Notes under the pieces: generated by a model
What the model saw: the letters and a program-made list of their open reading frames with translations, nothing else
What the model was told of the DNA's origin: nothing
Databases searched by the model: none
Made by a program: the position numbers and the translations under genes
Shown here: positions 12,361-18,029 of the stretch, piece by piece
Position numbering within the stretch: the first letter of the stretch is position 1
Layout: each line of letters starts with the position of its first letter
Virus record (IMG/VR): IMGVR_UViG_3300008108_000553
Span: 1-20,058 of that record
DNA from: a virus
DNA: 20,058 bases
Direction: 5' to 3' (one strand)

Positions 12361-12397
12361 ACCCAAAATTACCCAAAAACGTTAAATAACTGCATTT

Positions 12398-12685
12398 ATC
12401 CTTTACTGTAAAGGTTATTTTCAATTATCCTTTACATCCGAAACCCTTACTGCTATTGACTTTGAGCAAAGTGTAAAGGATGTAAAGGAAAAAAACGCAT
12501 TTTTTCTATAGGAATACAATAATAATATGTGTGTGTGTGTGCATAGTGTGTGTATATTATTCTATTAACTTTATAAGAAATTATCCTTTACATCCTTTAC
12601 AAACTTATAAGATTCAATGCTGGTAAGGGTTTTAAGTGTAAAGGATAATTTTTTTTATCCTTTACAATCCTTTACATCCTTTACA
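12398..12685. repeat. Iteron-like CCTTTACA / TGTAAAGG repeat block
   Basis: About ten copies of the octamer CCTTTACA or its complement occur in this gap, which lies between the nuclease and primase genes: at 12407, 12429, 12472, 12481, 12585, 12594, 12637, 12659, 12669 and 12678, plus a 7-bp half-site at 12400 that pairs with the copy at 12407. Tandem copies are spaced 9 or 10 bp. Two larger inverted structures are built from them: an 18-bp pair (12472-12489 with 12584-12601) and a 12-bp stem with a six-base loop (12637-12666). The last copies abut the primase stop codon. This is the only gap above 300 bp in the window and holds no gene. Confidence 0.85.
12472..12601. other. Candidate replication origin core: 18-bp inverted repeat around an AT/TG-rich spacer
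   Basis: Two perfect 18-bp inverted arms (12472-12489, 12584-12601) made of tandem octamers enclose 94 bp. The spacer is AT-rich and carries (TG)7 at 12528-12541 inside a 21-base purine/pyrimidine alternation (12525-12545), which could unwind easily. Iterons plus an unwinding segment next to the primase/helicase gene are typical of origins. A regulator-binding region is the alternative. Confidence 0.45.
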
Positions 12686-14854
12686 TTAAAATGGTGCCGG
12701 CTCTAAAAATTCGGTAAAAATGGCCTCGTTTTTCTCCACTTCATAGACCTGCATCACCTTATTGTTAACTCTTTTTAACAAACATTTAAATCCTATACGT
12801 TTTAGTTCCATGCCTAATTTCCTCAATGATAGGTTTTTCAGGCCGCTTTGAATCTCCAGGTGAACCTTTATTTCTGTTGCGGTCATAAACATTCCCCCGT
12901 TATTAAGTGGCAGTCCGAAATATTTATTCACAAGTTCATATTCCATTGAAAAGTCCTGAAACTTGTCTGCCTTGTTGTTGAGTTGGATAATATCTTCAGC
13001 AGATAATTGCCACTCAAAACCTTGATTATAAAGGTTGTAGGCATCCATGAATAGCTTGTCTTTGCATATTGAGTTGTATCTATTAAAGTCAATGCTTTTG
13101 ATTTCAATCGGTATAAATCGCCTGTTACCGGTTGGGTCATTAAGTATTGCTTTAGAATTAGTAGTTCCGCAAAGAACTGCTAATCTGTTTAGGTCAACAT
13201 TTGTCCTCCCGTATGGCTCCCGGAGTGAAAATGTCTGCTTACTGGTTAGTCCTTTTATGTGATCTGCTTCTTTTTTGTTCTTGCCGGCCATTTCATCATC
13301 CAGGATGATTAGCTTTTGGGTCATTAGTATTTCATCATCCTTGCCGGCATCTAACTTGCTTTCACCGTAGTAACTTTTTAGGCCCTTTGGCATCATTCTG
13401 CGAAATGCTTCAGTTTTACCGGTTCCTTGCCTTTCTGATACATAAATTAGGACCAATGGAGAGTGTACCCCAAATGCGCTGCTAATGACAGATACGAGCC
13501 ATTTTTTGCCAAAATAATGCAAATCATCATCGGTTTGAAAGCAACTAAAGAATTCATCTATTGTACCGGCACATGGTAAATCTTTATGATCTTCAAACCA
13601 GGTTAAAATAGGATTGTACGATTCTGTGTTATTGCTTGTCAACACCCGGTAGAACATATCGAAGGTTAAATCATCAAATATGACCTTTGCATCAAGGAAA
13701 AGAGTGTTAATAACTTTATCGTCTAAATCTTTCCCATCCAGCTCAATTCTGCGTGAAATAGTGTTAAATCTTAAACTGTATGTATGTTTTAAGTACGAGC
13801 GGATATTTTCAACTAATGATGTAGTATTGGAAAAATCAGCATTTGACTGAAAGGCCTGTTTGACAATTTGCTCTGCCTCTTGCTTTTTTATGCCTTCGAA
13901 CTTTTCTAAATTCTCCGCTATCTGATTGACTGATAACCCTGCCTTTTTTTGCGATGATGTAACTGCTGCAATGCGTTTTGTTTTTTCGCTGAATACGTTG
14001 ATTCCGGCTTGTTTAGCAAAGTAGTAAATAGTTGCTATGGTTATTTTACCGGTGCTTTGTGGTTGCCGTAAGCAATGGGTGAATTGTCTATCACACATTG
14101 ACCTTTCGTACTTGTTACTGCATGATGAAAGCTGGTGGAAGTACTCCCTACCTGCCTCCCCGAAATGGTCAGCAAGTCCGAAACCGATAGCCAGCCAATC
14201 GCGATAATCTTCAACGCATGATACGTTAGCATCAACCATTTTTTTAACTACCTCATCGAATTCGCTTTTTACAAATATGGTGCTTTGTATTTTGCGTTTT
14301 TTCTCCTTTGGCAGATACTTTTTAAATGTCGCTGCGTTAGTGTTAAGGTATGCTTCTGGATCGTATGAAATGAAACGGGGTCTGCAAATGTCCTTACCAC
14401 TTGGGTCAATAACTATTTGGTATTTTTTTATCAGGTAATCCGCAATGGAGTTAAAAGCATCTAAATGCCTTTCGCCATCTATTTTAAATATTACACATAA
14501 TCCGGTACCACTTATTGACATAAAACAAGCATAGACATAAGGGTCAGTAGAAAGCAATGCCTTTATCCCATTAAGTTCATTGCTAATGTTATCAATGTCA
14601 ATTCCTATAAATCCGCTATGATTAGTTATGCTTTTTGCGTTCCTTTCGGCTGAAAAGTAACCAGAAATAGTAACATAAGGTACCTGTAGTTTTGCTTTTT
14701 TGCGTTCTTCGTAATCCTTTAATATTCGGATAGGGTTAACATAGTCCTCCCATTTGCCGAAGCGAATATCATTGATAAATCTTTCAAGATCAATGGTTTC
14801 TTTTGATGTTGTTTGCCGGATGTTATTGTAGATGCTTATTACAGAGGTTCCCAT
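12686..14854 (-). CDS. Bifunctional primase-helicase: BT4734/VirE-N, PriCT-like and VirE ATPase domains
   Basis: The 722-residue protein looks like a phage primase-helicase. Residues ~60-180 carry a BT4734/VirE N-terminal-type primase-polymerase-like domain, with GFIGIDIDNI (81-90), SGTGL (115-119) and KDICRPRFISYDP (154-166). Residues ~200-285 resemble a PriCT-2 primase C-terminal domain, with YRDWLAIGFGLADHFGE and a FTHCLRQP segment. The C-terminal VirE-type ATPase (about 410-620) has Walker A SERQGTGKT (473-481), Walker B KLIILDDE (514-521), a sensor-like LCGTTN (561-566) and the TGNRRF arginine motif (575-580). It would prime and unwind the replication fork. It overlaps the helicase gene by 16 bases; the iteron block is directly downstream. 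Confidence 0.88.
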   Translation of the reverse strand: MGTSVISIYNNIRQTTSKETIDLERFINDIRFGKWEDYVNPIRILKDYEERKKAKLQVPYVTISGYFSAERNAKSITNHSGFIGIDIDNISNELNGIKALLSTDPYVYACFMSISGTGLCVIFKIDGERHLDAFNSIADYLIKKYQIVIDPSGKDICRPRFISYDPEAYLNTNAATFKKYLPKEKKRKIQSTIFVKSEFDEVVKKMVDANVSCVEDYRDWLAIGFGLADHFGEAGREYFHQLSSCSNKYERSMCDRQFTHCLRQPQSTGKITIATIYYFAKQAGINVFSEKTKRIAAVTSSQKKAGLSVNQIAENLEKFEGIKKQEAEQIVKQAFQSNADFSNTTSLVENIRSYLKHTYSLRFNTISRRIELDGKDLDDKVINTLFLDAKVIFDDLTFDMFYRVLTSNNTESYNPILTWFEDHKDLPCAGTIDEFFSCFQTDDDLHYFGKKWLVSVISSAFGVHSPLVLIYVSERQGTGKTEAFRRMMPKGLKSYYGESKLDAGKDDEILMTQKLIILDDEMAGKNKKEADHIKGLTSKQTFSLREPYGRTNVDLNRLAVLCGTTNSKAILNDPTGNRRFIPIEIKSIDFNRYNSICKDKLFMDAYNLYNQGFEWQLSAEDIIQLNNKADKFQDFSMEYELVNKYFGLPLNNGGMFMTATEIKVHLEIQSGLKNLSLRKLGMELKRIGFKCLLKRVNNKVMQVYEVEKNEAIFTEFLEPAPF

Positions 14855-16335
14855 GTCTTATAGTAGTTTTTAAGTTCTTCAATTAATTTTGTTCTTGTTA
14901 AATTTTGGTGCCATTGGTCGTACTTTTTACCTACTAACCGGCACCATTCTCTGTGCTTATCTTCTAAAATGTGGAGAGTAAAAATAAACTTTTCCTGATT
15001 GAGTTCTTTGGTGGTATATTTTAATTCTCTTGCAAAAGATTCAGCAAGTTTAAAAAAAGGACGATATTCTTTATTAAATCTGCATTCATAAATTATATCT
15101 AAAACATTGATATTTTTAGTTACTAACACAAATTCGCTCAATTCTTCTTCTACTTTTTGTTTTGGTGGAGGAAACTCATGTCCGCATTCAGGACAAATCA
15201 TAACTTTTGCGTGTAAAATTCGCATACACTTGGGGCAGTCCTTAACCGGTGCAACTCCTTCACCTTTCTTTGGTGGGTTCCAAAAAAGATAATCCCAATT
15301 ATGCCTGTCGCACCAATCCCCGTGAGTGATAGCATTCCCTCCCATGTCTATAATTGTGAAAGTTTTCTTAAATTCTGTTGGTCGTGAACCCCTACCGGTC
15401 ATTTGTAACCATAGCGGCATTGACATGGTTGATCTGTTAACTATGACCGTTTCAATCGTTGGCTCATCGAAGCCGGTAGTTGCTATCCCTACATTGCAAA
15501 GAATTGCACCTGGAGTATTTTCAAACCATGACAAAACCTCTGTTCTTTCATTGCTATCTGTTTCCCCATCAAAGTGCCGGCAATTATACCCTGCTTCTTT
15601 GAAAGCGTCTGTTACTTTTAGTGAGTGTTCAATATTTACGTTGAATACTATTGCCTTTGTACCCTCTGCTTTTTCCTTATAAATTTTTACCACATTTTTA
15701 ACATGTTGTGGCTGCGAAAATTCAAGGCCCATTAAGTTATTGTCAAATTCACCTGCTTTTATTGATAGTTCTTTTCTGTTGACTGAATCTTTGGCAGCGT
15801 ATGTTTCATTGGCACAAAGGGACCCAATTTTAATCAAATCTGCAATATCTATCCCACATACAATATCATTATAGTAATTTTTTAGCGGCTTATCTTTTGC
15901 GGCTGCCAGAGGTGTGGCAGTAAACCCAATGAAATAGCTTTCTGGAAAGTGATTATGTATTAGGTTAAAATTTGCGATGTGTGCTTCATCTATTATAATC
16001 ATTCCAATGTTATGCAGTTGGTCTATTCTACGTTTAACCGTTTCAACCATACCGACATAAATTCGGTTATATGGGATTGTCTTCATGCCGGCTATTATAA
16101 TTTGACAATCTAAATTGAAAGCATTGTGTAACGATCTGCGTGTTTGCTGCAATAGTTCTTTTCGGTGAACAAGGATTAAAACTGATTTTTCGTGCTTGTC
16201 AATGTATCTTTTGGTAATGGATGAAAAGCATACTGTTTTACCTCCACCGGTAGCAAGTTGTGCAATTACTTTTCTTTTTGATAATTTACGGATAACATCA
16301 TCCGTTAACTTAATTTGATAATCTCTTAACTGCAT
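14839..16335 (-). CDS. SF2 DEAD/DEAH-box DNA helicase
   Basis: The 498-residue protein has the full SF2 motif set: the Q-like start LRDYQIKL, Walker A LATGGGKT (27-34), motif Ib-type strand VLILVHRKEL, motif II IIIDEAH with DEAH, motif III GFTATPLAAA, motif V GIATTGFDEP and motif VI QMTGRGSR. After the helicase core is a zinc-ribbon-like CPKC/CPEC pair (near residues 376-393), then a helical tail. The start used is ATG at 16333-16335. A longer frame exists from TTG at 16353, but it would run through a hairpin and T-tract. The gene overlaps the primase by 16 bases and, with the VRR-NUC gene, resembles helicase/nuclease pairs of phage recombination. Confidence 0.9.
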   Translation of the reverse strand: MQLRDYQIKLTDDVIRKLSKRKVIAQLATGGGKTVCFSSITKRYIDKHEKSVLILVHRKELLQQTRRSLHNAFNLDCQIIIAGMKTIPYNRIYVGMVETVKRRIDQLHNIGMIIIDEAHIANFNLIHNHFPESYFIGFTATPLAAAKDKPLKNYYNDIVCGIDIADLIKIGSLCANETYAAKDSVNRKELSIKAGEFDNNLMGLEFSQPQHVKNVVKIYKEKAEGTKAIVFNVNIEHSLKVTDAFKEAGYNCRHFDGETDSNERTEVLSWFENTPGAILCNVGIATTGFDEPTIETVIVNRSTMSMPLWLQMTGRGSRPTEFKKTFTIIDMGGNAITHGDWCDRHNWDYLFWNPPKKGEGVAPVKDCPKCMRILHAKVMICPECGHEFPPPKQKVEEELSEFVLVTKNINVLDIIYECRFNKEYRPFFKLAESFARELKYTTKELNQEKFIFTLHILEDKHREWCRLVGKKYDQWHQNLTRTKLIEELKNYYKTWEPL

Positions 16336-16429
16336 AAAAAAAGAATGCCCCAAACGGTTGCAGCGTAAGGGGCATATTTAGTAAATACTAAATATAAGAA
16401 CTCATAGTCGGCTGCAACTTCGCCTATGA
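16336..16429 (-). ncRNA. Three-hairpin leader/terminator element before the helicase gene
   Basis: The gap holds three inverted repeats. The one nearest the helicase (16345-16375) has a 7-bp stem, a symmetrical AA/AA interior loop, a 3-bp ACG/CGT stem and a loop GTTGCAG. On the minus strand it is followed by TTCTTTTTTT and then the ATG, so it looks like an intrinsic terminator. The middle one is a 10-bp AT-rich palindrome (16374-16395). The third (16402-16429) has a 6-bp stem, a 1x1 mismatch, two CG pairs and a 10-base loop containing CTGCAAC. The first and third loops are perfectly complementary over 7 bases, so they could form a kissing pair or an alternative structure. A structured leader or terminator/attenuator is likely. 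Confidence 0.55.
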
Positions 16430-16438
16430 ATCTTTGAG

Positions 16439-16446
16439 CAAATATA
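16439..16446 (-). promoter_or_regulatory. Possible Bacteroidota -7 promoter box before the hairpin element
   Basis: On the minus strand the sequence TATATTTG matches the Bacteroidota -7 consensus TAnnTTTG. It lies just before the three-hairpin element, so a transcript starting some bases later would carry all three hairpins. No TTTG is found at the expected -33 distance, so the call is weak. The remainder of the gap (16447-16502) shows only a short GCGG/CCGC pair. Confidence 0.3.
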
Positions 16447-16502
16447 CTAAAGGTTTTTATAATGTGCGGTGTTATAGCGTATCCGCCATTCGGGGTAGTG
16501 CT

Positions 16503-17132
16503 TCATAATAGTGCTGATTGTAAAATATCAATACAAAGTTCTGTAGGTATTTTGCTTCGATTATAACTTCCCTTTCTACCTTGTGTACCTGTTTTGCTAC
16601 CTCTTGGTGCTGGTTGATGATGACATTGTTTGTTTCCGTTATGACAATGCGGCCTAGGTTTCCAGTTAATATCATTTGTAAATATATCTGTTGGCTTTGC
16701 CCTATCATCTCCATATTTACAATACCAAATAGTATGCCTTATAAATTGCTGCATAAAAGGCATTTTTCGCAGCATACCTCTGGGGTTTTCAATATAAAAT
16801 TTAAGCAATGGATTTATTGCTAACCATTGATAAATTAATTGAATAAAATGCTTATTAACTTCATCACATTTTTTTGCATATTCGCTTTTTGGTTCTATTC
16901 CGTTTCTATGTGTGCTTATTGCAGCAATCGTATAAGTAGTGCAATCAGGAGATGCCCAAATTATATCAGGAATAAATGGTACATCTGAAATTTTCATATT
17001 TCCAATATCACCTACATAATTTATGTTATCAAATTGCTGCCAATCAGCACTAAAAACTTTAATACCAAATTGCTCTGCAACTTTTCCTACTGATCTGCTA
17101 CCTGCGAAAAGTTCTAACAAATTGCGTTTCAT
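16503..17132 (-). CDS. Cytosine-C5 DNA methyltransferase, phage Dcm-like
   Basis: The 209-residue protein has motif I LLELFAGSRSVGKVA (5-19), a SAM-contact strand FSADW with the acidic residue of motif II, and the catalytic cysteine C64 in ASPDCTTYT, where canonical C5 enzymes have a proline directly before the cysteine. IENPRGML follows (114-121), carrying the ENP motif (115-117). The C-terminal part has a CHNGNKQCHH cluster (163-172), perhaps zinc-binding, and the GSKTGTQGRKGSYNRSKIP stretch that replaces the usual target recognition region. The size (~210) is small for a C5 enzyme (300-400), so it belongs to a compact phage subfamily. It probably methylates phage DNA against host restriction. 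It overlaps the small gene upstream by an ATGA. Confidence 0.83.
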   Translation of the reverse strand: MKRNLLELFAGSRSVGKVAEQFGIKVFSADWQQFDNINYVGDIGNMKISDVPFIPDIIWASPDCTTYTIAAISTHRNGIEPKSEYAKKCDEVNKHFIQLIYQWLAINPLLKFYIENPRGMLRKMPFMQQFIRHTIWYCKYGDDRAKPTDIFTNDINWKPRPHCHNGNKQCHHQPAPRGSKTGTQGRKGSYNRSKIPTELCIDILQSALL

Positions 17133-17320: not shown

Positions 17321-17520
17321 AGGGGCAGGATTGTTTGGTTGGTAATTTTGTAACGAATACCGTTAGAATCTAAATACGCTTCCCATACCCTAAATCTTGC
17401 AAACTTTTTATCGCCATAAGTTCCTATTTCTTCGCTTGTAGTTGAATAGCCAACTCTTGCACAAACATCAAAGTTTGGTTGTAATGTTATTTTCCAAACT
17501 ATACTTTCGTTATTTTGCAT
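17317..17520 (-). CDS. Small protein of unknown function
   Basis: This 67-residue protein is not recognised. Its pattern of alternating polar and hydrophobic residues (VWKITLQPNF, FARFRVWEAYL, GIRYKITNQTI) suggests a small beta-sheet domain. It has no cysteine pair, signal peptide or membrane segment. The ATG lies within a TAATG overlap with the stop of the alanine-repeat gene, and the stop overlaps the next start by an ATGA, so all three small genes are coupled. Confidence 0.6.
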   Translation of the reverse strand: MQNNESIVWKITLQPNFDVCARVGYSTTSEEIGTYGDKKFARFRVWEAYLDSNGIRYKITNQTILPL

Positions 17521-18029
17521 TAGATATATTTTAGTAGTAAAGATTTGATTTCATCCCTCGCAGCCCTCGCAGCATCCCTCGCAGCATCCCTCGCAGCAGC
17601 CCACGCAGCATCCCTCGCAGCATCCCTCGCAGCAGCCCACGCAGCAGCCCACGCAGCCACCGCAGCATCCCTCGCAGCAGCCAATTGTTCTACACTTATT
17701 AATTCATTGGCATAATCCCTTGCTGCTTGTATTGCCTTACGTGGTCTGTCATCATCGGGATATTCTTTCTCATAAATAGGCAGCACCATTTCAGCGCAAT
17801 CGGCTGCAAATAAGCGAATTTCTTTATCCTTCCCCTCTACTGCCCTAAATGCCCATAAGGTATCATCTAATCCGTTGCTTTCTAATATTGTACGGAGTTC
17901 CAATACTTCATCATCTGATTGGGTTTTGCCTAAATGATTCAACAATTTACCCCAACCCAAATTGGTATTTTTCGGTTCTAATAATCCGCAGGGTGAATGT
18001 GATTTGATTTTGTTTAATGTTGTTTGCAT
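17520..18029 (-). CDS. Alanine-repeat protein resembling the 'putative immunity protein' family (Imm-5-like)
   Basis: The 169-residue protein has a conserved-looking N-terminal part: SPCGLLEPK near residues 11-20, LGKTQSDDEVLELRTILESNGLDDTLWAFRAV (33-64), then EIRLFAADCAEMVLPIYEKEYPDDDRPRKAI (70-100). This is the wording I associate with the Imm-5-like 'putative immunity protein' family, frequent in Bacteroidota. The C-terminal ~50 residues form a period-four alanine helix with repeated ARDA/AWAA blocks. Its biochemical role is unknown; the family name comes from neighbours of polymorphic toxins. No toxin gene is present here, so it is an orphan, and a superinfection, anti-toxin or anti-defence role is only inferred. 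A hairpin sits in front of the start. Confidence 0.6.
   Translation of the reverse strand: MQTTLNKIKSHSPCGLLEPKNTNLGWGKLLNHLGKTQSDDEVLELRTILESNGLDDTLWAFRAVEGKDKEIRLFAADCAEMVLPIYEKEYPDDDRPRKAIQAARDYANELISVEQLAAARDAAVAAWAAAWAAARDAARDAAWAAARDAARDAARAARDEIKSLLLKYI
17552..17681. repeat. 12-bp tandem repeats encoding the alanine helix
   Basis: About nine imperfect 12-bp units, of two kinds (CAGCATCCCTCG and CAGCAGCCCACG on the plus strand), run end to end with a few shortened units. On the coding strand they give ARDA and AWAA blocks. Their near-identity means copy number could change by slippage or recombination without breaking the frame. Confidence 0.85.

Follow-up and report, generated by a model that had tools for sequence, protein, structure and literature searches.

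Kissing-loop terminator leaders upstream of a helicase gene and other phage genes: a putative family of cis-acting transcription attenuators

The window analysed here, meaning the whole stretch of DNA under study, is a linear virus contig of 20,058 bases from IMG/VR. It encodes a VapE-type primase, a superfamily 2 helicase, a DNA methyltransferase and a RecT-like annealing protein, along with further phage genes. The genes of the helicase region all lie on the minus strand, so that the feature described below is the leader of a minus-strand helicase gene. The nearest named-phage relatives of the helicase belong to Cellulophaga, Flavobacterium, Nonlabens and Parabacteroides phages. The leader is preceded by a box of the form TAnnTTTG, the promoter form established for the phylum Bacteroidota, and the helicase relatives and the promoter form combined point to a Bacteroidota host. 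Elsewhere in the window, downstream of the primase gene (12397–12690), a direct and inverted repeat array built on ATCCTTTACATCCTTTACA looks like the iterons of a replication origin; similar repeats are found in loci L004 and L005. An Imm5-like protein is encoded at 17520–18029 (minus strand), where 12-base tandem repeats at 17548–17700 specify Ala/Arg/Asp-rich units. The helicase gene and the parts of its leader are as follows.

14839–16335, minus strand: superfamily 2 helicase gene (ResIII/DEAD and Helicase_C), start codon ATG at 16333–16335
16336–16342, minus strand: T7 tract, the end of the terminator, directly before the helicase ATG (from the sequence)
16345–16375, minus strand: terminator hairpin P2, ATGCCCC-tt-ACG[CTGCAAC]CGT-tt-GGGGCAT (from folding; covaries in groups A and B)
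16357–16364, minus strand: 3' kissing strand GCTGCAAC in the terminator loop, perfect complement of 16411–16418
16374–16395, minus strand: AT palindrome ATATTTAGTATTTACTAAATAT between the two hairpins (from the sequence)
16402–16430, minus strand: 5' hairpin P1, TTCATAGgCG[AAGTTGCAGC]CGaCTATGA (from folding; covaries in groups A and B)
16411–16418, minus strand: 5' kissing strand GTTGCAGC in the P1 loop, complementary to 16357–16364; its counterpart covaries in relatives
16439–16446, minus strand: predicted promoter, Bacteroidota-type -7 box TATATTTG (TAnnTTTG; from the sequence)

An initial annotation of this DNA had noticed complementary hairpin loops before the helicase ATG. The pairing is present and extends over 8 bases rather than the 7 reported (16357–16364 with 16411–16418). 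On the terminator side the eighth base is shared with the 3-bp inner stem ACG/CGT, and only one of the two pairings can form at a time. The T tract after the gene-proximal hairpin adjoins the start codon, as had been described. The 97-nt leader folds better than 200 of 200 dinucleotide shuffles (z = -3.6), and a 111-nt stretch gives a folding z of -3.0 against shuffles. When the leader is shuffled behind its own promoter, just 25 of 4000 sequences contain any descriptor match, and none of the 4000 reaches the real score for 5' hairpin, complementary loop and terminator stem. Within the window the leader is the sole match of a stricter descriptor. A 19-codon reading frame, MKHYPEWRIRYNTAHYKNL, occupies 16447–16506 (minus strand), and its stop codon directly precedes the promoter box; a similar short frame, MKQHPLWKIRYNTAHYNYLSIFA, is found in L004.

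The first eight relatives of the helicase were collected without any use of leader sequence. Relatives at 64–66% identity carry the same leader layout in the same place, with loops that are different yet complementary: GTAGCGG/CCGCTAC in L006, and GGTAGAAGC/GCTTCTACC in L007 and L008. The P1 stem of L004 has compensated changes (CATAT/ATATG), and the TAnnTTTG box of the relatives stands about 8 nt before P1, as in the window. A deeper helicase search added L020, L021, L022, L024, L026 and L073, each with its own complementary loops. The AT palindrome pointed out in the initial annotation exists in the window but is not a family feature: something similar occurs in L004 and L005 only, and other members have an AT-rich linker in its place. 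Among the other helicase relatives inspected, those whose start overlaps the upstream gene or comes shortly after it are mostly without such a leader. Such absence is expected if the element belongs to a transcription start, and the element seemingly accompanies a transcription unit beginning at the helicase gene.

Covariation across relatives, on which the original proposal had been made to depend, is strong in the stems and in the loop-loop pairing. Two groups of leaders are distinguished. Group A was gathered by loop-based patterns and the covariance model R1, which gives 33 matches, 26 of them distinct, every one at an E-value of 3e-9 or better. Used alone, the loop pattern GTTGCAGC..GCTGCAAC was swamped by chance matches; in 100 other viral loci (0.88 Mb) that match the loop pattern alone, R1 finds nothing at E <= 1. 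In the group A fold, P1 is followed by the terminator stem P2 (about 17 bp), which encloses a hairpin P3; a 9-base strand beside P3 pairs with the P1 loop. Taken over all helices, the kissing one included, the covariation score is 0.621; shuffling gives 0.207, and slid partners give 0.088 at most. Pairing in the loop-loop helix reaches 99.6% over the 26 distinct leaders, and four of its nine pairs show double changes. Since loop patterns served to find many of the group A loci, a fair test has to leave loop positions free. With three positions free on each side, all of the R1-fitting pattern loci are complementary (33/33).

Group B brings the design into cultured phages. The same arrangement precedes replication-module genes in Flavobacterium phages lillamy9-1, tooticki6-1, snusmum6-2 and elemoA and in Cellulophaga phage phi19:3. 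The loop pairs of lillamy9-1 (GTGAGACG/CGTCTCAC) and snusmum6-2 (GTGGAACG/CGTTCCAC) differ by two compensatory changes. A pattern with two bases free per side finds 40 viral loci, of which 40 are complementary, and a TAnnTTTG-like box lies just upstream in nearly all of these that could be inspected. The covariation score, again over all helices, is 0.330, against 0.162 shuffled and at most 0.110 slid, and the inner stem GGCA/TGCC covaries too. The paper that describes these isolates reports no lysogeny genes in the mumin-, pippi- and tantphages, which suggests a lytic life (PMC7077304). In two elements, at 9721 of L310 (snusmum6-2) and 4100 of L325 (phi19:3), the purine-rich and pyrimidine-rich loop strands have exchanged sides; the 5' loop reads GCTTCGAC or CTCTCACAA, where a G/A-rich strand is usual. 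Some group B loci, for example L354, L355, L365 and L392, have an extra small hairpin between the T tract and the ATG, with a stem that apparently covaries (AGGT/ACCT, CGAT/ATCG, CCGT/ACGG) and a conserved ATCTTWAAA loop.

The covariance models detect the window's own copy marginally at best. R1 gives no match to it at E <= 1 over all loci and 13 bits in a 201-base search, and R2 gives 5.6 bits. Its probable place in the family is assigned by its orthologous position beside the R1-matching L007 and L008 and by the same architecture. The window has a 5' hairpin behind TAnnTTTG and, just before a gene, a terminator-enclosed segment complementary to the hairpin loop.

The strict descriptor requires the promoter box, the 5' hairpin, a loop complementary to the segment enclosed by the terminator stem, and the T tract. 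In 0.70 Mb it yields 12 matches with a score of at least 26, where shuffles lead one to expect 1.4; a few lower-scoring matches are likely to be chance. Looser descriptors returned many AT-rich chance matches, and stricter versions with shuffle controls were used in their place. Elements can be numerous within one genome. In snusmum6-2 there are three, before a helicase (gp033), a NUMOD4-HNH endonuclease (gp040) and gp043. The 9.5-kb contig L387 has five, two of them of lower score; the genes that follow are a methyltransferase, an HNH endonuclease and others of unknown kind. Several group A contigs have one element per genome. Loop pairs are unrelated between the copies of one genome, so that each leader matches only itself. 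The genes behind the elements include helicases, helicase-methyltransferase fusions, a DUF3987 primase, DUF6291 proteins, a methyltransferase, HNH endonucleases, a YopX protein and small unknown proteins. The tie to the helicase suggested at the outset is not an exclusive one: the same design precedes many other phage genes.

Among distinct elements with a score of at least 26, counted over all loci except the control set, 52 of 54 have a co-directional reading frame that starts no more than 51 nt past the T tract. For 40 of the 54 the distance is at most 25 nt, and the median is 16. Ordinary terminators of isolate phages have a gene start within 25 nt in 8 of 139 cases, in a rough control restricted to simple short-loop hairpins and longer reading frames. 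A gene start so close to the T tract mostly leaves no room for another promoter, so that in most cases RNA polymerase would have to pass the terminator to transcribe the gene. A spacing of 28–51 nt from the start codon is seen in about a quarter of the elements, which with one or two exceptions belong to group B; here a short promoter might just fit before the gene.

The preferred reading, to which we give a probability of roughly 60%, is that these leaders form a family of cis-acting transcription-attenuation elements ("kissing terminators") that would gate phage transcription units. It builds on properties that sequence comparison supports well, namely the fold, the loop pairing, the promoter box, the terminator shape, the pre-gene position and the multiple copies with unrelated loops. 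The general mechanism would proceed in five stages. (i) RNA polymerase would start at the TAnnTTTG promoter and produce an RNA of 75–120 nt, in which P1 comes first and the intrinsic terminator last. (ii) The P1 loop and the terminator loop would pair to give a compact RNA, held by a kissing helix or, with the extra P3, by a loop-to-bulge helix. (iii) Most transcripts would end at the terminator, which finishes close to the start codon and in the window is predicted to touch it. The downstream gene would then be made mainly by read-through. (iv) At some moment of infection, a factor or condition would raise read-through. As the loops vary freely provided that they match, the structure or RNA polymerase, and not loop sequence, should be the target of the releasing factor. 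(v) In the read-through mRNA the hairpin would stand against the start codon, and translation may be limited too. The recurrence of the same self-docking design before other genes of Bacteroidota-type phages, with many different matching loop sequences, suggests that the kissing-loop leader is probably a built-in brake and that expression of these genes requires the phage to release it.

The initial annotation had offered an attenuator or a switch. The terminator and where it stands favour the first half of that suggestion: as read from the sequence, a promoter is followed by an intrinsic terminator upstream of the gene. The second half fares less well. A systematic search for a conserved competing (antiterminator) helix in two alignments gave none that is convincing. 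Its only candidate has three pairs and five double changes, which is not convincing, and a small hairpin in the 5' arm of P2 (GCCC..GGGC), considered as an antiterminator, is without covariation. With no conserved competing helix, a classical two-state switch is not supported, and the claim is that the leader works like an attenuator. No NusG-type antiterminator gene is found in the 18 phage records tested.

Among other explanations, a stand-alone small RNA was also raised at the outset. The terminated transcript of about 100 nt would itself be the product, serving as a protein decoy, an inhibitor of a host factor or a regulator in trans, and the downstream gene would be incidental. The separate promoter and terminator, the compact fold with both ends in stems and the single element per genome in several group A contigs would all suit such an RNA. 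Several copies per genome with differing, unrelated loops, nearly all right before a co-directional gene, favour a local role in cis instead. The loops are moreover engaged within the RNA itself, and so are not free for targets; we regard this explanation as unlikely. A weaker case can be made for a promoter and strong terminator that merely set constant low expression, with loop pairing that aids RNA stability and regulates nothing. Neither a switch helix nor a trans factor is identified, in keeping with such an arrangement. Loop-loop pairing kept in dozens of leaders nevertheless needs a reason, and a weak promoter would presumably be a simpler route to a low level. This possibility seems decidedly improbable.

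The two remaining explanations are less probable still. A leader position with an intrinsic terminator and a pseudoknot-like fold would befit a riboswitch, in which a small molecule bound by the fold toggles the terminator. The loops are free to change if they match, the groups share few conserved unpaired positions, a competing helix is not found and no metabolite is common to the downstream genes, which together make ligand sensing very improbable. A DNA-level element (a cruciform, a replication origin or an operator with inverted half-sites) is suggested by the inverted repeats and by the replication genes that are often near. At paired positions, G-U combinations number 80 and 32, against 5 and 3 for A-C, their other-strand equivalent. 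So large an excess in the stems indicates that selection acts on the gene-strand RNA. Several copies occur per genome, and the window has a separate iteron-like array at 12397–12690. Of all the explanations, action as DNA has the least to recommend it.

Attenuation in cis may extend to a regulon. Bacteroidota phages, cultured lytic Flavobacterium phages among them, would carry several promoter-linked attenuators per genome, each with its own kissing pair, and would release them through shared antitermination that reads structure and depends on the phage or the host. This extension is tentative, and we hold it to be somewhat short of an even chance. If true, it would mean a new class of RNA as well as a new layer in how phages time their genes. 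A covarying RNA family between promoter and start codon is a testable candidate for such timing. Kissing leaders also offer a clean example from nature of a terminator with a built-in loop-loop contact, and because loop pairs differ between copies they provide a natural collection of matching kissing pairs.

Comparison with known RNAs gives partial likenesses. No Rfam family reaches its gathering threshold for the leader. The best Rfam match of the window leader, the trpB motif RF04312, scores 24.8 bits, far below the gathering score of 59, and reflects a generic shape. It resembles the leader in having two hairpins, the second a terminator; it differs in its occurrence in Firmicutes and Fusobacteria and in an antiterminator shoulder in P1, and the accessible part of its description reports no kissing contact (PMC11109978). 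Nucleotide BLAST of the leaders against phage records gives chance matches only. A search of bacterial and archaeal genomes for one loop form, GGTAGAAGC, gave two matches, both by chance in unrelated sequence. No description of such leaders appears in the literature searched, mainly openly available papers; there may be an earlier one. An ssNA-helicase motif from a 2017 motif survey is reported to stand ahead of helicase genes in metagenomic sequence. None of the Rfam matches to the leader bears that name, and the comparison is limited to this position.

Among phage RNAs, the P4 CI / c4 antisense RNA (RF01695) also ends transcription by pairing, ahead of replication genes. The P4 RNA is a separate antisense molecule that acts in trans, whereas kissing leaders hold both strands in one RNA, and RF01695 gave no match to the leader in the Rfam search. 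Phage lambda makes a short terminated RNA from its Q-dependent late promoter. The Q antitermination factor recognizes a DNA site embedded in one late promoter and engages RNA polymerase there, after which terminators are passed (PMC6606751). The present system differs in having several units per genome, each with its own covarying RNA fold, and no Q-like factor is identified. The put element of HK022 is a cis-acting nascent phage RNA that suppresses pausing and termination through contact with RNA polymerase (PMC9378689). As is proposed for the kissing leaders, put is a promoter-proximal structured RNA of phage early transcripts that acts in cis; it differs in that the structure described here itself holds the terminator, and RNA polymerase contact is known for put only. 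With no claim of relatedness to either, HK022 put and the lambda Q units may be taken as the nearest working comparisons for the kissing terminators.
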